A DNA stretch of 64,000 bases from Nitrospirota bacterium (GTDB lineage: Bacteria > Nitrospirota > Thermodesulfovibrionia > Thermodesulfovibrionales > Dissulfurispiraceae). Shown here piece after piece: positions 47,790-57,487 of this stretch (position 1 is the first letter of the stretch; every line of letters begins with the position of its first letter). Location: assembly GCA_004321915.1 (NCBI GenBank), contig SCQE01000068.1, positions 1 to 64,000 of the forward strand, written 5' to 3'. A model generated the notes under the pieces. The model was not told the origin of the DNA. It did no database searches and was given only the letters and a program-made list of their open reading frames with translations. The position numbers and the translations under genes were made by a program.

Positions 47790-48743
47790 TCAGGTCTTTT
47801 TCATGGCTTCGTCAAAAAGCGAGCTGAGGTTTTTGGCTGCTCCGTAAATGCCTCTCAGCGTTTCGGCCAGTTCGCTCTTGCCTGCCTGTTCGGCCTTTGC
47901 GGCCCATTCCCGGTAAGTTGCGGCGTGCTCGTCGTTGTGCTCTTTCCAGTGGTGCAGCAGGTGATTAAGTTTTGCCATGTCGTCCATAGAAGTGCTCTCC
48001 TTGTTTATGCTTTGTTTTTGAAGAGATAGAGGCAACTCAAGATTGTTTCCTTCAAGCAAGGCTTTGTTCGACAGTATCGCTTCTGCGGGGCCGTCGGCCG
48101 CAACCCTGCCGTCCTTTATCACGATGCATCTTTTGCAGACATCCAGTATCAGGTCAAGGTCGTGTGAGGCCACTATCTTTGTGTGTTCGAATGCCTTCAG
48201 CAGCTCAATGAGCTGCCGCCGGGATTTGGGGTCGAGATTTGAAGCCGGTTCGTCCATCACAAGTATGTCCGGCCGCATGGCTATGACTGTCGCGATCGCC
48301 ACAGCGCTCTTCTGGCCGGACGAAAGGTGGTGCGGCGGCTTATCTTTCAATTTAAGACAACCGACAGTATCGAGCGCCTCCTCAACCCGTTCGGCAATCC
48401 TGTCAGCGCTTATTCCGAGATTCAGCGGGCCGAAGGCGACGTCATCGAATACGGTGGGCATGAAAAGCTGGTCGTCCGGATTTTGAAAGACGAGGCCGAC
48501 TTTTTTCCTTATGTCCTGACGGGTATGTTTGTCTAGCTGAAGGTCTCCTACGACTATGCTACCGCTGGAGGGCAGGAGATGGCCGTTTATGTGCATGAGC
48601 AGCGTTGATTTTCCCGCCCCGTTTGCCCCGACAATGCCGACAGATTCCCCGTGAGATATCCTGAAGGAAGCGCCGTTAAGGGCCGATGAGCCGTCCGGAT
48701 AGCGGAAATGTACATCTTTAAATTCGACAAAGTGATGGCTCAT
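47790..48743 (-). CDS. cbiO: Co/Ni ECF-type importer ATPase CbiO with C-terminal extension
   Basis: Energy-coupling ATPase of a cobalt or nickel importer, 317 residues. Walker A GANGAGKST, Q-loop QNPDDQLF, signature LSSGQK, Walker B ILVMDEP and switch His (SHDLD) are all present. About 68 extra residues at the C-terminus (from about 250, MDDMAKLNHLLHHWKEHNDEH) are His-rich and helical, as found on some Ni/Co importer ATPases, and may bind metal. It is the last gene of the porin-cbiM-cbiQ-cbiO operon. Confidence 0.92.
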   Translation of the reverse strand: MSHHFVEFKDVHFRYPDGSSALNGASFRISHGESVGIVGANGAGKSTLLMHINGHLLPSSGSIVVGDLQLDKHTRQDIRKKVGLVFQNPDDQLFMPTVFDDVAFGPLNLGISADRIAERVEEALDTVGCLKLKDKPPHHLSSGQKSAVAIATVIAMRPDILVMDEPASNLDPKSRRQLIELLKAFEHTKIVASHDLDLILDVCKRCIVIKDGRVAADGPAEAILSNKALLEGNNLELPLSLQKQSINKESTSMDDMAKLNHLLHHWKEHNDEHAATYREWAAKAEQAGKSELAETLRGIYGAAKNLSSLFDEAMKKT

Positions 48744-48747
48744 GAAA

Positions 48748-49545
48748 TCATCCCGTCGTCCATCTGCCTATAAGCGTTGTCAGGTTAACGACCCTGAATA
48801 ACAGGATGAGCCCGACGCTCGCAAAAATGAACAGGATGTCGGACATAGTCAGGGCATATGCCTTCGTGGAATATATCTTCCCGTTAAAGCCCCTTGCGAG
48901 CATCGCATTGTAAACACGTTCCGCCCGATCCACTGTCCTGATAAATAAAACGCCTATAAGCGGCACGAAATGTTTTATTCCCTTTCCCCTTTTGTTAAAT
49001 GACCGCATGTCGCGGGCACGGACTATTTTCATCGCTTCTTCCATCAAAACGAAAAGATACCGGTAAAGAAAAAGAAGCTGGGCCACAAAGGCCTTTGGTA
49101 TTCGGAGCTTTTGCATCGCAAAGCAGATGCCGGGGAACGAAGTCGTTGCAATGAGAAGCAACGCAGCGCTGATCGTAAGTGAGAACTTGAGCATTATGGA
49201 AACAAATGACATCCATCCGCGACTCACAGTAAAGCCAAGGAAATTAAGCGCCGGCTGGCTGTCAAGCAGAGGGTTGAATATTCCGATAAAAACGGCAAAT
49301 GGAGAGACAAACAATATTTTTTTCAGTATGAACCGAAAGGGAATGTCACCGAGGGTAAGAAATAATACAGGGAAAATAAAAAACGGCAAAAGCCCTGTGA
49401 CGGCGTATTTAGGAAAAGAAACAACGGCGACGATGAACATGAGCGACGAGATCAGCTTTATCCTCGGATCGATCCGGTGGATAAAGGTGTTCTGATAGGA
49501 AAGCCTGTCGAGATAACCTAGGTTAAAGAATTCCGTGTCGAACAT
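48748..49545 (-). CDS. cbiQ: Co/Ni ECF-type importer transmembrane protein CbiQ
   Basis: A 265-residue energy-coupling membrane protein. About five or six membrane segments; the coupling-loop motifs ARDMRSFNKRG and AERVYNAMLARGF (two A-R-G helices that contact the ATPase) are clear. It lies four bases before cbiO. Confidence 0.92.
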   Translation of the reverse strand: MFDTEFFNLGYLDRLSYQNTFIHRIDPRIKLISSLMFIVAVVSFPKYAVTGLLPFFIFPVLFLTLGDIPFRFILKKILFVSPFAVFIGIFNPLLDSQPALNFLGFTVSRGWMSFVSIMLKFSLTISAALLLIATTSFPGICFAMQKLRIPKAFVAQLLFLYRYLFVLMEEAMKIVRARDMRSFNKRGKGIKHFVPLIGVLFIRTVDRAERVYNAMLARGFNGKIYSTKAYALTMSDILFIFASVGLILLFRVVNLTTLIGRWTTG

Positions 49546-49620: not shown

Positions 49621-50667
49621 TCAGGTCTTTTTTTTCACAGCCTTGATGCTGAATCCGATAAGGAGGATCATGCCGATTACGATGCCCGAACCGACCATGC
49701 CCGACAAGGATTTGCCGGACTCGACGTTTGGCCAGACCTCGGCTTTTTCCCCTGCCCCGGCGCTTTCCGTTTTTTCTCCGGTTTTTCTGAAACTATAATC
49801 AGGGAGAAAAGAGGTGGCTTCTTGCACCCTTTTCAGCGAATGCGTTATGCCCTGTGGCTGTTCCGGAAGTTCCGGCTTGCCGAAAGTCTTTTCTATGGAC
49901 CATTCAAGGCCGTCCGGGTTTGCAGAAGCAAACCAAGAGAGCGTTCCGCCGGTCAGCAAAGCCGCAACCGATAAGCCGACCAAGACATTTCTAAGCGATA
50001 CTCCGGCGGCAATCGGGCGGGTTGAAAAGGCGCTTTCGATGATCTCAGGCCGCGCAGATTTTATGAAATTTATGACCCCCGCCGTTACAAAACCTTCGAC
50101 TATCCCTATGCCTAGGTGAATAGGCTGCATCAATAAAACGAATGTGTTGAAGGGCAGTTCGCTCCGGCCCGACAGCAACGTCTGAAGGACCACTGAAAAA
50201 GCGCCTAACTGCAGACCGACCACCCCGCTTATCATTGCGGCGGCAGTAATCCGTCCGGACGTGGCCCCTGAACCGGCTAAAGGTTTATAAATCAGCGGAT
50301 AGGCGATGAAGCAGGGGTATATGCCGAGGTTCCAGATATTGCATCCGAGCGCAAGAAGGCCCCCGTCTGCGAAGAAAAGGGCCTGCACCGTAAGGACCGA
50401 GGCCATGACTACAAACGCAGCGTAAGGGCCGAGCACTATAGAAAGTATCATTCCCCCGCCGAGATGTCCGCTCGAACCTGTAGCAGGAATCGTGAAATTG
50501 ATCATCTGCGCTGCGAATATAAAAGCCCCTAGAACACCCATAAGCGGGACCATTTTTTCGTCCATGGTCTCTTTCAGCTTCTTGGAGCAATATGCGATTG
50601 CAGCTAAAGTCCCTGCCCAAAATGTTGCTCCGGCTGCAGGTGAAAGTAAAGCATCCGCCATGTGCAT
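49621..50667 (-). CDS. cbiM: Co/Ni-binding substrate component CbiM fused to a CbiN/PDGLE-like part
   Basis: Substrate-binding membrane component of an ECF-type cobalt/nickel importer, 348 residues. The mature-type N-terminus MHMADALLSP supplies the metal ligand His2; about seven membrane segments and GSSGHLGGGM follow. The C-terminal 100 residues (a PDGLEWSIEKTFG segment and a last membrane helix) match the PDGLE/CbiN-type subunit, so two subunits are fused. The start lies 21 bases after the porin stop. Cobalt versus nickel cannot be decided. Confidence 0.93.
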   Translation of the reverse strand: MHMADALLSPAAGATFWAGTLAAIAYCSKKLKETMDEKMVPLMGVLGAFIFAAQMINFTIPATGSSGHLGGGMILSIVLGPYAAFVVMASVLTVQALFFADGGLLALGCNIWNLGIYPCFIAYPLIYKPLAGSGATSGRITAAAMISGVVGLQLGAFSVVLQTLLSGRSELPFNTFVLLMQPIHLGIGIVEGFVTAGVINFIKSARPEIIESAFSTRPIAAGVSLRNVLVGLSVAALLTGGTLSWFASANPDGLEWSIEKTFGKPELPEQPQGITHSLKRVQEATSFLPDYSFRKTGEKTESAGAGEKAEVWPNVESGKSLSGMVGSGIVIGMILLIGFSIKAVKKKT

Positions 50668-50688: not shown

Positions 50689-52032
50689 TTATTGGAAGCT
50701 TACGCCCATTTTCATAAAGACCTCATCGTTCTTTCCGCCCATAATCAGTTTCTGTGAGGGATGCAGTCTGTAGTTGGTGTGTCTGTATTCCGAGGCCACA
50801 AAAGCTGAAAGGCCTTTTTTCTCGTCTTTATAGAAAGTATATGTCCCGCCTGCGCTGTATCTGTTGTCCACAGACCATGTCCTCGATTTTTCGGCTATTC
50901 CTCCGTCATCGAAGTCCTCGTACCTGACCGCTAATTCAAGCGGGTCTGTAACACTGTAAGCTGCTCCCAAAACCAGTATCCGCTCTTTGAAGCTGTCGCT
51001 GAACAAAGCGCCGGCTGTTGTGTCCCAGTACCTCTCTCTGCTCAATGCCTTCATATACTCCGCCTCGACGGTCAGGCCCTTTATGAAAATGCAGTTGTAT
51101 TTTGCGTTTAAGCCCATGGTAGTATTGCGCTTGCTGTGGCCCGGCTCCGATATGTAAGAGGCTCCGAGTGACAGGCGGTCTTTGAACGGGCTAAACTGTG
51201 CGGCCAGAATGTACGAGTTGACCTCATTGGTCTGCTGTGCAACAGGCATGACACTTCCGGTGGATGCCCTTCTGATGTTATTGTTTGCGTTTGTTTCGTC
51301 AAAAAGCCTTGACTGAAATAGATGCGTCTGGTGCTCCTCCCCCTTGTAAGCCGTAGCGGACAAATCCAGATCCAGAGGCCCGGTAACGCCTACGGTCAAG
51401 CCGACCTTTTTGGTCTCGTAAGCGTCCTGAGTCATGGGGTCGGTCACAAGATGGTTGTAAAACGCGCCGAAGGGCTGCGTGCGCTTGCCCACAACCGCAT
51501 AAAGCGGAAAGCCCTCTTTCTTTGCGGTGATTATGGCCTGATCGACTTTAGTGTCTTCGTTGTTGTTCGCGTTATTGACGCTGTCGCCTATCCACTCCGA
51601 GTTGAGCGTTATATTTGTGGTGAGCCATTCGTTAATGCCGGCCTGCAGGCCTATTTCGGTCTTTCTCAGATAGAGGTCAGAGGTTGAATCGTAGCCTGTA
51701 TTCCCGAACGCCATGTTCCTGTGCCTTCTCCACCTGTATTCGCCTTGGACCGTGCCCGAGAATTTTAGGCGTTTGGCCCATTCGGCCGCGTCGGATTCTT
51801 TCTTCTTCTCGACCTCGGCAATGACCTCTTTTTTAATCTCTTCTTTCATCTTTGCGCTCTCTTCGCCTTTTGCGGTCTCTTTGAGCTCTTTTTTCAGCTC
51901 CTGATATTCCGCCTCGGTTATAACGCCTTTCTTGATGAGCAGTTTGAGTATAAGGTCCGCCTCGCCGGCGAAAGAGAGTGAGGCCGCAAACAAAAAGGCG
52001 GCTGCCGTAAGGATCGATAAATATTTTTTCAT
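50689..52032 (-). CDS. LbtU-family outer-membrane porin, first gene of the Co/Ni operon
   Basis: A 447-residue outer-membrane protein. Signal peptide 1-22 (SLSFA), an N-terminal helical, coiled-coil part (25-85), then a beta barrel ending in MKMGVSFQ. The LbtU family includes a siderophore importer of Legionella; here its place directly before cbiM, with a shared leader, suggests it admits the metal or a metal chelate through the outer membrane. That is inference. GGGGGC precedes the ATG. Confidence 0.82.
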   Translation of the reverse strand: MKKYLSILTAAAFLFAASLSFAGEADLILKLLIKKGVITEAEYQELKKELKETAKGEESAKMKEEIKKEVIAEVEKKKESDAAEWAKRLKFSGTVQGEYRWRRHRNMAFGNTGYDSTSDLYLRKTEIGLQAGINEWLTTNITLNSEWIGDSVNNANNNEDTKVDQAIITAKKEGFPLYAVVGKRTQPFGAFYNHLVTDPMTQDAYETKKVGLTVGVTGPLDLDLSATAYKGEEHQTHLFQSRLFDETNANNNIRRASTGSVMPVAQQTNEVNSYILAAQFSPFKDRLSLGASYISEPGHSKRNTTMGLNAKYNCIFIKGLTVEAEYMKALSRERYWDTTAGALFSDSFKERILVLGAAYSVTDPLELAVRYEDFDDGGIAEKSRTWSVDNRYSAGGTYTFYKDEKKGLSAFVASEYRHTNYRLHPSQKLIMGGKNDEVFMKMGVSFQ

Positions 52033-52043
52033 TATGCCCCCTG

Positions 52044-52097
52044 AAATAAAAATGCCACGAACGCTTGGGGACCTTCAGATCCGCTCGCCTTCGTGGC
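52044..52097 (-). promoter_or_regulatory. Structured 5' leader of the Co/Ni import operon (possible riboswitch or attenuator)
   Basis: On the minus strand an eight-base-pair stem (GCCACGAA with TTCGTGGC, 52054-52097) encloses an internal loop (GGCGAGC opposite CCAAGCG) and an inner stem GGATC-TGAA-GGTCC. A U-rich stretch follows (ATTTTTATTT, 52044-52053), then the porin ribosome-binding site. Only about 70 bases lie between transcription start and the ATG. It is too short for a cobalamin riboswitch and does not match the NiCo (czcD) fold that I know. Confidence 0.55.
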
Positions 52098-52107
52098 TTG
52101 ACTGAAA

Positions 52108-52136
52108 ATTTATCAAATAGGGTCTTGCTTTGTCAA
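52108..52136 (-). promoter_or_regulatory. Promoter of the porin-cbiMQO operon
   Basis: On the minus strand, TTGACA (52131-52136), a 17-base spacer and ATAAAT (52108-52113). Transcription would begin near 52101, directly at the leader hairpin. Confidence 0.7.
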
Positions 52137-52173
52137 GGGACCGGCAAAAACGATTACATGACCCGGACAGTCG

Positions 52174-52755
52174 CTATATTGATTGCTCGTTAAACAAGAT
52201 ACTGTAAGAAGATATTCCTTTTGAAAAAGTCCTGTTTCTCGGCAACCCATAATCGGATTTGCTGCGATACTCTCTATCATATTTATACACCGGCTGAAGC
52301 TCGAGATAATGAGGCCCGCCTTCTTTTACGGTTAGGCTAAACTCTTTTGAATACTCGTCTTCAGGGAGTCCGATAAAGAATTTATGCGTACCGGCTGAAA
52401 GTATTATCCTTTTATAAAGCTTATATTTTATACCGTCACCCGCTTCAGGATTATTTGATTTGTAGCCATCGGCATACTTCGGAAGGTTATCCTGCATCCC
52501 CTGAGACTTCCATGTTACTGCTTGACCGTCAATGTTAATCACAAACGGATATTCCGGCCGCAACCCTTCTTTTTTAATAGAAGCTTTGATTATCAATATC
52601 GCCTGTCCTTTTTGCACTTGCCCTTCTTCGGCAAATACGTTTGTCTTGGCGCTTTTCGCTTTTTCTAAAATCTGACCCTTGCCTGACATGTCAAAACCAT
52701 AGCTAAGTGTTACGCAAAGAACTACCGCCATAAAAGCAACGCCGATTCGTTTCAT
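52174..52755 (-). CDS. Secreted protein of unknown function, metal-efflux operon
   Basis: A 193-residue predicted periplasmic protein with a signal peptide (1-20, ending SYGF). The rest is beta-rich with a few aromatic pairs (YKYDREYRSKSDYG). The start at 52755 has GGAGGG ahead of it. It is the last gene behind the PII-like and RND genes, 53 bases downstream of the former. No family recognised. Confidence 0.65.
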   Translation of the reverse strand: MKRIGVAFMAVVLCVTLSYGFDMSGKGQILEKAKSAKTNVFAEEGQVQKGQAILIIKASIKKEGLRPEYPFVINIDGQAVTWKSQGMQDNLPKYADGYKSNNPEAGDGIKYKLYKRIILSAGTHKFFIGLPEDEYSKEFSLTVKEGGPHYLELQPVYKYDREYRSKSDYGLPRNRTFSKGISSYSILFNEQSI

Positions 52756-52808
52756 TTTGTCCCTCCATATCTGTTGTATTGTATTGCCGTTTATTTTCAT
52801 AATGGATT

Positions 52809-53138
52809 TTAAGCGTTAATCGCTCCCTTTCCTATTTTGATCGCCTGCTGCACATTAAGGACATATATTTTGCCGTCGCCCCTAATGCCTGTATAAGCGA
52901 CCTCATTAACAATCGAAATAAGCTTATCGGCGAGGTCGTCATTGCAGAATATTTCTATTCGTGCATAAGGCGCAAAATCCAATAGACTGTCTATTTTGCA
53001 GGCATGTTCCTGTCCCTCTCTTCTGCCAAACCCCTTTACTTCAGAAACGCTGATACCCCTTAGCCCTTCAACTTTTTGAAGGGCCAAGGTGACATCCGAC
53101 AACTTGTGAGGCTTGATGTAGGCTATGATTTCTTTCAT
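52809..53138 (-). CDS. PII-like regulator (GlnB/GlnK fold) in a metal-efflux operon
   Basis: A 109-residue PII-family trimeric signalling protein. Typical strands KEIIAYIKPHKLSDVTLAL, RGISVSEVKGFGR and GDGKIYVLNVQQAIKIG are present. The T-loop region (EGQEHACKIDSLLDFAPYA) is short and lacks the uridylylated Tyr of GlnB, so it is not a nitrogen PII but a relative found beside heavy-metal RND pumps. It lies 11 bases after the RND gene. Confidence 0.88.
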   Translation of the reverse strand: MKEIIAYIKPHKLSDVTLALQKVEGLRGISVSEVKGFGRREGQEHACKIDSLLDFAPYARIEIFCNDDLADKLISIVNEVAYTGIRGDGKIYVLNVQQAIKIGKGAINA

Positions 53139-53149
53139 CTGTTCTCCTC

Positions 53150-56100
53150 CTATTTCATAACGGTTTCTTCTTCGGGATTTATAGCAAACCAGCGGTATAA
53201 TGACGGTATAACTAAAAGCGTAAGGGCTGTTGATGTAACAAGCCCCCCAATCACTACCGTTGCAAGAGGACGCTGGACCTCACTGCCTGTGCCGCCTGAC
53301 AACACCATAGGAATCAGTCCAAGCGCAGCCGCCAGCGCAGTCATAAGCACAGGCCGCAGCCTCATGCAAGCGCCCTGAATACAGGTTTCATCCATAGGCA
53401 TTCCTTTCCTTAAAAGTTGATTCAGGTATGTAACAAGGACCATGCCGTTTGCAAGGGCGATACCGAAGAGGGCTATAAAGCCTACCGATGCGGGCACAGA
53501 AAGGTTCTGCTGCGTAATCCATAAGCCCACCACGCCCCCTACGAGGGCAAGGGGAATGTTGAGCAATATCAGAAACGAGTTCTTCATCGAATTGAACGAC
53601 GAGTATAGCAGCAGAAAGACGATCAGCAGCGTAACTGGGATTACAAGGGTCAAACGCTTATTGGCCTCTTTCTGCAACTCGAACTGTCCGCCCCAACTCA
53701 TGAGGTATCCGGGAGGAAGTTTGACTTTGGCATCTATCGCCTTCTGCGCATCCTTAACAAAAGAACCTATGTCACGGTTCCGTACATTGCACTGAACGGT
53801 TATGAATCGTTGGTTATGTTCGCGTGTAACCTGTCTCGGTCCGATGAGCTCTTCAATCTTTGCCAGTTCGGACAGAGGGACCCTTGGGCCTCCGGGCGCA
53901 GGAACAAGAATATTGCCGATAACCTCCGCGCTGACTCTTGCCTCAGGTGCGTATCGGACAAAGATATCAAAGCGCTTTATGCCTTCAAAAACCTGCCCCG
54001 CTTTGTCACCCCCGACAGCGGTACGAATGATCTCCTGAACATCCTCGACATTTATCCCATACCGTGAGATAGCCTGACGGTTTATTGTAATGCGGAGCTG
54101 AGGCGTTCCTGACACTTGGTCCTTCTGCACATCGGCAGCGCCCGGCACCTTCCGTATAACCTCTTCGATGGCTTCAGCCTGCTCCTTAAGCTCCTCCATG
54201 TCCGGGCCGAATATCTTTATTGCGAGGTCAGCTTTAATACCGGTAAGAAGTTCGTCAACCGCCGCCGCAATCGGCTGAGTGAAGTTGAACTGGACACCCG
54301 GAAAGTTTTCGAACTCCTCGCCCATCTTAAAATACAACTCTTCAAGACTCTTGGCGGATGTCCATTGATTTTTCGGCTTAAGCTCCACAAAGGCCTCGGC
54401 GCTGTTGACAGGGTCTGCATGTGCTCCTACTTCTCCCCTGCCGACCCTTGTAACAACTCTTTTTACCTCCGGGAATTTTGACATAAGTCTTTTCTCAAAT
54501 CTGAGCATAGTATCTCTCGACTCTTCGATTGATATTGAAGGGGCCATTGTTGCTCGTACTAGAAGGTCTCCCTCGTTCAGCCTCGGCACAAATTCCGAGC
54601 CGAGCAGCATGTATAATAGACAGCCAATAACAAGAAGGCTTGCAGAGAGAATGACCGCTGATTTAGGGTTCCGAACAAAATACGACACAGCGGGTTTGTA
54701 ATGCTTTAGGAGCCGGCGCAGAACAAACACCTCTTTGTGCTCCCCGGAGGTTGTCGGCTTTTTCATAATAAGGCTTGCCAGCACAGGCACAAAAAGCACA
54801 GCAAAGATCAGAGAGCCTAACATCGCATAGGACATTGTTTGCGCAAGGGGTTTGAATGTTTTCCCTTCAACTCCCTGCAGCGTAAAGAGAGGCAAAAATA
54901 CTATTACGATTATTAACAGGGAAAACAGTATCGGTCTTGCCACTTCAATGCAGGACCGGGCCACAATATGCATCGTTGGCTCGTTAGGATCTGCATCCCT
55001 CAGATGGCTGTCTATATTTTCGACCATGACAACAGCTCCGTCAACCAACAACCCGAGTGCAATGGCAAGTCCGCCAAGAGACATAAGGTTTGCCGAGATG
55101 TTGAAATACCACATAAGCAGAAATGCAAAAGCCAGAGAAAACGGGATTGCGGCAAGTACGACAACGCTGGGTCTCAGACCTCCGAGCATGACCAGCTGGA
55201 TAATGACTATAAGGATACCCGCCTCGATAAGCGCCGTGGTAACTGTCTGAATGCATTTCTTCACAAGAGTTGCCTGATCATAATACGCAACGACTTTTAC
55301 GCCTTGAGGAAGCACCTTGTTGATCTCTGCCATTTTTGCTTTCACATCGGCGATGACCGTAGAGGTATTTGTCCCGATAAGTTTAAGCACCATACCGACG
55401 ACAGCCTCTCCTTTACCGTTCATTGTGGCAAGTCCTCGACGGATTTCGCCGCCTATAACAATTTTCGCAACGTGGCTGAGGAATACAGGAGTTCCCTTTT
55501 TGGATTTCAGGACGATAGCCTCAAGATCGCTTATCTTCTCCGCAAGCCCTACCGAGCGGACAATGTATTCTTCTGCGTTTTTGACTATGAACTGAGCGCC
55601 TACATTAGAGTTGTTGGCCTTAATTGCCGCTATCACTTCTTTGAGAGAGATATCATATCTAAGAAGGTCCTGCGGCCGCACCTGAACATGGAACTGTTTG
55701 ACTTCGCCTCCAAGCGAAAGAACTTCTGTCACGCCCGAGACTGTCTGGAGGTTAAACTTTATAAGCCAATCCTGAATCTCTCTCATCTCTTCCGGAGATC
55801 TCTTGCCTGTTTCGTCTTCCAAAACATAGAAGAGTATCTGTCCGAGCCCTGTGGAAATCGGCCCCATTTCCGGCTTGCCGAACCCCTCGGGTATTTCTTC
55901 ACGCGCGTGCTGCAGCCGTTCGTTTACGAGCTGCCGTGCAAAGTATGTATCCGTTCCATCCTTGAAGTAAATATTAACGACCGACAAGCCGAAATTCGAT
56001 ACCGACCTGATTTCTTTAAGCTCGGGGAGCCCTGCCATTGCAGCCTCAACAGGATAGGTGACATACTTTTCGACCTCTTCAGGCGCAAGTCCTTCTGTCT

Positions 56101-56251
56101 CTGTAAAGACCTGAACCAGATTCGGCGTTACATCAGGGAAAGCGTCAACGGGAAGCTTGATATAACTGTAATAACCGGCTGCAAGGATTAGTATGCCGAG
56201 CACCCCCATAAGCAAACGGTTCTGTAGAACAAAGTGTATAATTTTCTGCAT
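53150..56251 (-). CDS. Heavy-metal efflux RND pump (CzcA/CusA family)
   Basis: Inner-membrane proton-driven pump, 1033 residues with 12 membrane segments and two large periplasmic loops. The HME-RND signature in TM4 reads LGLLVDGAVVMVEN; the N-terminus QNRLLMGVLGILILAAG and C-terminal TSTALTLLVIPSLYRWF are family-typical. It exports a metal cation with the CusB-type and TolC-type partners encoded upstream. Which metal (Zn, Co, Ni, Cd, Cu, Ag) cannot be assigned from the motif alone. Confidence 0.93.
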   Translation of the reverse strand: MQKIIHFVLQNRLLMGVLGILILAAGYYSYIKLPVDAFPDVTPNLVQVFTETEGLAPEEVEKYVTYPVEAAMAGLPELKEIRSVSNFGLSVVNIYFKDGTDTYFARQLVNERLQHAREEIPEGFGKPEMGPISTGLGQILFYVLEDETGKRSPEEMREIQDWLIKFNLQTVSGVTEVLSLGGEVKQFHVQVRPQDLLRYDISLKEVIAAIKANNSNVGAQFIVKNAEEYIVRSVGLAEKISDLEAIVLKSKKGTPVFLSHVAKIVIGGEIRRGLATMNGKGEAVVGMVLKLIGTNTSTVIADVKAKMAEINKVLPQGVKVVAYYDQATLVKKCIQTVTTALIEAGILIVIIQLVMLGGLRPSVVVLAAIPFSLAFAFLLMWYFNISANLMSLGGLAIALGLLVDGAVVMVENIDSHLRDADPNEPTMHIVARSCIEVARPILFSLLIIVIVFLPLFTLQGVEGKTFKPLAQTMSYAMLGSLIFAVLFVPVLASLIMKKPTTSGEHKEVFVLRRLLKHYKPAVSYFVRNPKSAVILSASLLVIGCLLYMLLGSEFVPRLNEGDLLVRATMAPSISIEESRDTMLRFEKRLMSKFPEVKRVVTRVGRGEVGAHADPVNSAEAFVELKPKNQWTSAKSLEELYFKMGEEFENFPGVQFNFTQPIAAAVDELLTGIKADLAIKIFGPDMEELKEQAEAIEEVIRKVPGAADVQKDQVSGTPQLRITINRQAISRYGINVEDVQEIIRTAVGGDKAGQVFEGIKRFDIFVRYAPEARVSAEVIGNILVPAPGGPRVPLSELAKIEELIGPRQVTREHNQRFITVQCNVRNRDIGSFVKDAQKAIDAKVKLPPGYLMSWGGQFELQKEANKRLTLVIPVTLLIVFLLLYSSFNSMKNSFLILLNIPLALVGGVVGLWITQQNLSVPASVGFIALFGIALANGMVLVTYLNQLLRKGMPMDETCIQGACMRLRPVLMTALAAALGLIPMVLSGGTGSEVQRPLATVVIGGLVTSTALTLLVIPSLYRWFAINPEEETVMK

Positions 56252-56266
56252 GTCCTGACCTCCCGT

Positions 56267-57487
56267 TTAGTGGTTGCTATGTCCGTCGCCGAATGCGCCC
56301 TTGGACATTTGGGCTTTGAGCGTAAAGCCGCCCTTGGCAACATATTTCTGCCCATTCGCTAAACCCGAAATAACTTCAACATGGGTATCGCTGCTTCTGC
56401 CGAGCGTCACAACCTGCGGTTTAAATCCTTCTTCCGTCTGCACAAAGACTTCAGATTTGCCGCCTTCTGATGTGATTGCTGTTTTGGGTATGAGCACCGG
56501 TACAGACACCTCAGCAACCGCAAGTTTAGCCGTCACAAAAAGTCCCGGTCTAAGAAGGTCTTTAGCATTCGGCAATACAACCCGCGCAATTGCGGTCCTT
56601 GTCTCCTGTCCCGTCACCGGAGATATATAAGAGATTGAACCTTTTGCATCCGGGATTCCACTGCCTGCTGAAATAATCACATGCTGTCCTTTTTTTACAT
56701 GAAGCATATCTTTTTGATAAACGCTTATATTCACCCATACAGAACTCATGTCCGCTATTACGAAAGCTGCGGTATCGTCCTTCAGCGCTGCACCCAAGGA
56801 AATATGTTTTTCTATTAGTGTGCCGCTGAAAGGAGCTTTCATTTCATAGCGGGTAAAGCTCATATTGGACTGCGTGGGCAAAGCTGACAGATCCTGAGCG
56901 GTAAAACCAAGGGCGTAAAGCTTTTGCTCCGAAGATCTCAACTCGATCTGGGCTTCGGCAAATGCCTTTCCGGCATCGAGGTAATCGAGTTCCGGAGAGA
57001 TTTTCTTTTTATAAAGCGTCTCCTCCCGCTTCAGGTTGGTTTGCGCTATCTCCATTCGCTTTAGGGCAGTAAGGTATGCGGCTTTTGAATCGGACATCTC
57101 TTTGCTGTCAAGAACCGCGAGAACGTCGCCGGCCCTAACTTGATCGCCAAGGTTTTTCGATACCGTTCTGACAACACCCGACACTCGGGGGACAATACTC
57201 ACTAACCTGTCCGCATTCGGGGTTATCTCTCCGGGCAGCTCTATCTGTACAGCCATTCTTCCCTGTCCGGCTTCTTTAATCTCTATGCCGAATTCTTTTA
57301 TATCATCGGCATGCAGTTTGACTATCTTCTCGTCATCGTGGCGCTCCTTGTCTTCCTTGTGATTCTCTTTAGATGCTTTTTCAGGCGAATGCGCCTCTTT
57401 CTTTGCTCCTGTGGCCGAATATCTAAAGCCTATGCCGGCCATAATAGCGGCCGCTATTATAAGGACAGCGATGTATTTGATTTTCAT
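56267..57487 (-). CDS. Membrane fusion protein of the heavy-metal RND pump
   Basis: A 406-residue periplasmic adaptor (CzcB/CusB type). Signal anchor 1-22, a His/Glu/Asp-rich stretch (about 32-56, KENHKEDKERHDDEKIV) that may bind metal, then barrel-sandwich (RVSGVVRTVSKNLGDQVRAGDVLAVLDS), alpha-hairpin and beta-barrel domains. The last residues include DGHSNH. It lies 15 bases before the RND gene and 20 after the TolC-type gene. Confidence 0.92.
   Translation of the reverse strand: MKIKYIAVLIIAAAIMAGIGFRYSATGAKKEAHSPEKASKENHKEDKERHDDEKIVKLHADDIKEFGIEIKEAGQGRMAVQIELPGEITPNADRLVSIVPRVSGVVRTVSKNLGDQVRAGDVLAVLDSKEMSDSKAAYLTALKRMEIAQTNLKREETLYKKKISPELDYLDAGKAFAEAQIELRSSEQKLYALGFTAQDLSALPTQSNMSFTRYEMKAPFSGTLIEKHISLGAALKDDTAAFVIADMSSVWVNISVYQKDMLHVKKGQHVIISAGSGIPDAKGSISYISPVTGQETRTAIARVVLPNAKDLLRPGLFVTAKLAVAEVSVPVLIPKTAITSEGGKSEVFVQTEEGFKPQVVTLGRSSDTHVEVISGLANGQKYVAKGGFTLKAQMSKGAFGDGHSNH

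Follow-up and report, generated by a model that had tools for sequence, protein, structure and literature searches.

A conserved two-state leader as a probable transcription attenuator of nickel, possibly nickel/cobalt, import genes in Nitrospirota

Introduction

What does the compact structured RNA at the head of a metal import operon in a Nitrospirota bacterium do, and to which signal does it respond? The locus lies in a stretch of 64,000 nucleotides (hereafter the window), in which the original prediction, made from the letters, placed a 44-base hairpin close to a transcription start and suggested a new metal- or B12-sensing leader. The wider background is the control of nickel uptake, which is open in the more than half of bacteria with NikABCDE importers from which NikR is missing (PMC2667541).

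Results

A leader between a promoter and the import operon

The features of the locus are listed here.

52107-52136, minus strand: sigma-70-like promoter, TTGACA (52136-52131), spacer and TTTGATAAATT (about 52117-52107); kept in the sister species
52087-52097, minus strand: hairpin A, GCC-ACGAA-GGC, which doubles as the 5' arm of the terminator
52069-52082, minus strand: hairpin B, GGATC-TGAA-GGTCC; stems variable and covarying in the family
52054-52064, minus strand: 3' arm, GCGTTCGTGGC, which pairs with hairpin A to form the terminator stem
52044-52053, minus strand: U tract of the terminator, A-UUUUU-A-UUU; family consensus TTTTTTATTT
52037-52042, minus strand: porin ribosome-binding site, AGGGGG, read from the sequence
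50689-52032, minus strand: outer-membrane porin, first gene of the operon; Porin_4 match slightly below the Pfam cut-off
49621-50667, minus strand: CbiM/NikM-type substrate-binding component with a PDGLE (NikN-like) domain
48748-49545, minus strand: CbiQ transmembrane component
47790-48743, minus strand: CbiO ATPase with a His-rich C-terminal domain of 65 residues

On the minus strand the promoter is followed in order by the 44-nt hairpin (52097-52054), the A-UUUUU-A-UUU tract (52053-52044), the ribosome-binding site AGGGGG and the porin-cbiM-cbiQ-cbiO operon, the porin ATG being at 52032. The hairpin near the transcription start, the U-rich run ahead of the porin ribosome-binding site and the operon behind them are thus as originally predicted. 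The -10-like TTTGATAAAT lies 16-18 bp downstream of the -35 box TTGACA (52136-52131). Folded alone, the hairpin has an energy of -26.5 kcal/mol, compared with a mean of -12.8 for shuffled sequences (z = -5.0), and none of 200 shuffles was as stable. We rejected a plus-strand structure, as the fold of the region on that strand is weaker than that on the minus strand and opposite to the orientation of the operon. A mobile or repeated element was also rejected, as the window's genome contains one copy and there was no good plasmid match.

The only other member of the genus that we found, the MAG Nitrospirae bacterium MYbin3 (PEAD01000026), retains the promoter and is identical at 41 of the 44 hairpin positions. 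One change turns a U-G pair of the inner stem into U-A, another a C.C mismatch into C.U, and the third the basal G-C pair into G-U; all three keep pairing or fall at the mismatch. The promoter is conserved in this sister species although the sequence further upstream differs, and the window's gene at 52174-52800, on the upstream side of its promoter, has no counterpart upstream of the sister locus. As the two loci do not share this gene, the hairpin is not its tail. Across 81 leaders of the family described below, a -10 box at the fixed spacing with at least five of six matches is found in 25, compared with 18% in shuffles; the enrichment is only modest, and it is mainly in the window and its sister that the start site has support.

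The surroundings of the operon have features of their own. Shortly upstream of the leader and on the same strand, an RND metal-efflux-like set (52809-57487, minus strand), composed of a CusA/AcrB-type pump, an HlyD/CusB-type fusion protein and a P-II-like small protein, places efflux beside the import operon, and between this set and the leader the gene at 52174-52800 encodes a 208-residue protein of no known family. The last 65 residues of the window's CbiO are helical and His-rich, with a weak EncFtn-like match (E 0.019); this C-terminal domain is a separate gene in relatives, and a separate small gene in many leader operons.

The leader belongs to a widespread family

Of 176 genomes of the order, 59 gave a match to a covariance model built from the window and sister sequences (R1). 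A second model, R2, built from 40 leaders, matched 136 of 396 Nitrospirota genomes at E<=0.01, where about four false genomes are expected by chance; the matches come from 81 of 170 genera, and a single genome has as many as 10. The E-values of R2 are calibrated approximately, and presence/absence counts are affected by the incompleteness of the MAGs. At the gathering score Rfam gave no relevant match to the leader, including the cobalamin (RF00174) and NiCo (RF02683) riboswitches, and at E<=10 nothing relevant, again including these two, was found over 51900-52300. This agrees with the original view that the leader is neither of them; the same scan detects true cobalamin riboswitches in five relatives. 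We found no paper in the open-licence literature that ties nickel import to attenuation or names the leader motif.

The anatomy is described from 81 leaders gathered by a descriptor. Hairpin A has the consensus (AA)GCC-A[C/U]GAA-GGC(UU), with ACGAA or AUGAA as its loop in all 81. An A-rich linker of 1-10 nt leads to hairpin B, in which 38 different 4-bp stems surround near-constant loops, (A/U)GNA or AYGAA, the former more generally NGNA (AGAA in 22 leaders, AYGAA in 14, AGCA in 12, UGAA in 6 and AGUA in 5). A linker, the 3' arm GC(U/C)UUC(G/A)UGGC, UUUUUUAUUU and the ribosome-binding site follow. Some leaders have an additional upstream hairpin with a similar type of loop, or two tandem attenuators.

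Several variants were observed. Two complete leaders, in tandem or flanking cooT, precede a single operon at five loci (L029, L135, L142, L178 and L206). Variant leaders with the hairpin-A loop AUGUA and strong GC stems are found before NikL-CbiM operons in family f28 (L179, L182 and L183). Leaders of family f11 (L092, L093, L094, L100, L058 and others) have a conserved GCCGCGGGAA 3' of the U tract; this GCCGCGGGAA could perhaps pair with the 3' arm of the terminator (CGCGGC), giving a third state or an anti-terminator.

Two mutually exclusive folds covary

The minimum-energy fold of the leader RNA without the 3' arm consists of hairpins A and B (-9.0 kcal/mol in the window), and hairpin A forms in the nascent-RNA fold, with the 3' arm removed, of 79 of the 81 leaders. 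With the 3' arm present, the window's leader folds as the terminator, at -26.3 kcal/mol. Covariation, by which the original prediction was to be judged, was scored on a MAFFT alignment made from sequence only and not fitted to structure, and it is strong for both folds. Over the whole terminator fold there are 49 two-sided changes, where shuffles give 16.8, and over the A+B fold 42, where they give 16.0; none of 500 shuffles scored as high in either case. The signal is far lower when either structure is slid by 1-3 columns. In the terminator helix 94% of the alignment cells are paired, and at position 5 of the arm C-G is exchanged for U-A in step with the 3' arm.

From the covariation of both folds and the computed energies with and without the 3' arm, we model the leader as a two-state attenuator whose OFF state is the hairpin first noticed. 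The original prediction was right about this terminator hairpin and overlooked the alternative fold, the tandem hairpins. As in an attenuator, mutually exclusive antiterminator and intrinsic terminator folds lie between the promoter and the first gene. The A and GAA of loop A are invariant in all 81 leaders, whereas their 3' partner drifts (for example to A.C in 10 of the 81); termination alone does not account for this invariance, and the 5' arm is constrained beyond termination.

The genes behind the leaders

Nickel/cobalt uptake-type genes follow 76 of the 81 leaders. In a second set, which extends to other classes and families, they follow 47 of 52. No information on genes entered the searches. 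Because the leaders are related to one another, the counts do not represent independent trials. The target types in the two sets are porins, CbiM/NikM, NikL, DUF4198, PDGLE, CbiQ, CbiO, TonB and ExbB/D, and further TonB-dependent receptors, SBP_bac_5 proteins and a methyltransferase. The gene order OprB porin-DUF4198-CbiM-NikL-CbiQ-CbiO resembles nikKMLQO, which is NikR-controlled in delta-proteobacteria (PMC545781); DUF4198 would then be the counterpart of NikK.

Leader and NikR exclude each other

Of 175 genomes of the order, 36 encode NikR. It is absent from all 93 genomes with a firm leader (E<=1e-4), against an expectation of about 19 uncorrected for phylogeny, and families f2, f3 and f13 include genomes of both the leader type and the NikR type. 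Six NikR genomes have weak leader matches, with E-values of 2e-4 to 6e-3, near the chance range. In two genomes (G045 and G062) nikR stands directly before a homolog of the window's porin. Action of NikR on the same genes is excluded in the genomes with firm leaders by the count of 0/93, and the leader appears to stand in for NikR in many Nitrospirota.

Two genomes have porin paralogs of which one carries the leader, while the other carries a cobalamin riboswitch in G085 (an Rfam match) and a cobalamin-riboswitch-like 3' end, recognised by eye, in G129. As paralogous porin operons carry the cobalamin riboswitch in the same place, the signal read by the leader is probably not B12; judged by these sequences, B12 is unlikely. 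The suggestion of a new metal or B12 leader therefore stands as to a conserved, covarying leader of Co/Ni import; its B12 part is unsupported, given these paralogs and the mutual exclusion of leader and NikR. Nickel is probably the best-fitting signal, with cobalt possible: the corrinoid-type methyltransferase, TonB receptors and CbiMQO among the targets could equally indicate cobalt.

Candidate factors

CooT (PF10133) is encoded by 123 of the 136 leader genomes and by 59 of the 260 genomes of the phylum without a leader, counts that are uncorrected for lineage. As CooT is common without the leader, and present in most NikR genomes as well, the co-occurrence largely reflects lineage and a CO-dehydrogenase lifestyle. 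No CooT was detected in four fairly complete genomes with firm leaders. In the window's genome CooT adjoins DUF3842. Among the leaders, L206 stands directly before DUF3842-cooT and L207 directly before cooT. DUF3842 (PF12953) stands consistently beside CooT in both phyla (L210:2515-3112, L206, L212, L215, L217 and L222), and from this arrangement the two probably work together. CooT is presumably a member of COG1532, named 'predicted RNA-binding protein'. The Rhodospirillum rubrum protein is a 7.1-kDa homodimer that binds one nickel with a Kd of 9 nM, and cooT mutants depend on a nickel supplement (PMC6006190); a structure is available (6fan). Of the 176 genomes of the order, 7 encode ANTAR proteins (PF03861), among them a single leader genome by R1, and the window's genome encodes none; we ruled them out as binders on this distribution. 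No other candidate factor was found in the islands examined.

Outside Nitrospirota the scan covered one genome, that of the clostridium Acetoanaerobium noterae (Bacillota; NZ_CP154629.1), chosen only for encoding CooT, the sole CooT in the plasmid collection PLSDB. The record is a 2.63-Mb Acetoanaerobium chromosome filed there as a plasmid. Downstream of its CooT come DUF3842 and a His-rich protein related to the CbiO tail domain (L222). The best R2 match (E 3.6e-6) immediately precedes an ABC operon; the binding protein of this operon has TIGR02294 nickel_nikA as its best match (2e-40, below the curated cut-off), and the loop of the leader's hairpin B is atypical. NikR was not found in this record. 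A second R2 match (L244, NZ_CP154629.1:1031412-1031468, E 1.2e-4) has the complete anatomy of A, B and terminator, followed by a second terminator and uppP, with no adjoining nickel gene; it may be a free small RNA.

Discussion

We conclude that the leader represents a new class of attenuator for nickel (or nickel/cobalt) uptake genes. On the evidence above we consider it probable that it controls the import of nickel, possibly of nickel and cobalt, through a trans-acting factor for which CooT is the best candidate; the direction of the response, the existence and identity of the factor, and nickel over cobalt are what we infer. Transcription would start at or slightly before hairpin A, and the nascent RNA would first form two small tandem hairpins with related loops (AYGAA in A, NGNA or AYGAA in B). 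Once made, the 3' arm would pair with the 5' arm of hairpin A into a strong intrinsic terminator, and transcription would end before the porin and transporter genes. Under nickel shortage the factor would bind both hairpin loops and keep hairpin A closed, allowing read-through; loaded with nickel, it would be released from the RNA and the operon would shut. A small nickel-binding homodimer of the CooT family best suits this part, and a CooT dimer reading two hairpins is attractive. The fuller proposal, that the CooT family is a metal-sensing RNA-binding antiterminator, gripping both tandem loops and taking the place of NikR in Nitrospirota and some Clostridia, is a tentative one and may well be wrong.

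The main rival to CooT as sensor is the RNA itself. A true riboswitch, binding Ni2+ or Co2+ (or a corrinoid) and choosing between tandem hairpins and terminator without protein, would explain why metal-import operons begin with so compact a leader, why its folds are mutually exclusive and why it is spread widely over two phyla with no obligatory regulator gene nearby. The conserved unpaired bases are, however, found only in two small loops, a pattern that points to a binding protein no less than to an aptamer; the A-rich linkers of variable length and the freely changing stem of hairpin B are unlike the core of a metal or corrinoid aptamer; no Rfam riboswitch matches; and for B12 the paralogous operons already use the cobalamin riboswitch. 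We regard direct sensing as unlikely. Protein-dependent antitermination by a factor other than CooT is a serious contender, if short of an even chance: DUF3842, which usually accompanies CooT, can stand first after a leader, and the topology matches that of ANTAR targets (PMC3369931), so that a divergent ANTAR-like domain or an unknown protein might also serve. Against this stand the scarcity of ANTAR in the order, its absence from the window's genome and the lack of another candidate in the islands.

A hairpin without any response to a signal, acting as a constitutive partial terminator or stabilising the 5' end, fits a strong terminator that begins at the 5' end, and similar hairpins can stabilise mRNA. 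It would leave unexplained why the loop of hairpin A is invariant while the 3' arm drifts, why loop B stays near-constant on variable stems, why the leaders are restricted to metal-uptake genes and why they and NikR exclude each other, and we think it very improbable. Practically no credence can be given to the idea, raised with the original prediction, that the hairpin is merely the terminator of the gene at 52174-52800: the shape is that of an intrinsic terminator, but a conserved promoter stands upstream of the hairpin, the sister genome does not have the same upstream gene, and the family goes with the downstream genes.

An attenuator with a trans-acting factor, the reading we prefer, would offer a concrete candidate for nickel control without NikR, in the form of an RNA regulon that is large, with as many as 10 leaders in a genome, and whose distribution complements that of NikR. 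If true, it would give a regulatory role to CooT/DUF3842 or to another sensor, and it would make it easier to recognise outer-membrane porins, TonB systems and methyltransferases that serve nickel/cobalt uptake. So far CooT has been described only as an accessory protein of CO dehydrogenase that binds nickel; were it the factor, the leaders would form a previously undescribed nickel-responsive RNA antitermination regulon. We know of no other attenuation system for nickel import, and the leader would be the first.

Among known systems, the targets of ANTAR proteins (EutV, NasR, AmiR) also carry a pair of small hairpins in a 5' leader, with conserved loops that are related to each other; one hairpin of the pair shares the 5' arm with an intrinsic terminator, which makes the folds mutually exclusive. 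In ANTAR targets the second hairpin overlaps the terminator and the similar loops are hexanucleotides with A at position 1 and G at position 4 (PMC3369931), and EutV may exclude tetraloops (PMC8934654). In the present leader, by contrast, the upstream hairpin A overlaps the terminator arm, and the loops have 4-5 nt (AYGAA, mostly NGNA) rather than A1/G4 hexaloops. The targets are metal uptake genes and not nitrogen or ethanolamine genes, and ANTAR proteins are almost absent from the genomes of the order.

The guanidine-II (mini-ykkC) riboswitch likewise consists of two tandem hairpins with short similar loops, ACGR. The leader shares this layout and has no Rfam match to it; the C of its loop is freely replaced by U and is missing in loop B, so the CG kissing contact of guanidine-II cannot form. 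The NiCo (czcD) riboswitch (RF02683), a four-way junction that controls efflux, is also an RNA leader linked to Ni/Co transport, whereas the present leader, which its covariance model does not match, has two hairpins and precedes import genes. Cobalamin riboswitches (RF00174) precede homologous porin and cobalt-transport operons in related genomes; they do not match the leader in sequence or structure, and both can be found in one genome at different porin paralogs. NikR apparently does the same job as the leader, the control of nik/cbiMQO-type uptake and porin genes. It does so as a DNA-binding protein, whereas the leader acts on RNA, and within the order the two do not co-occur (leader E<=1e-4).
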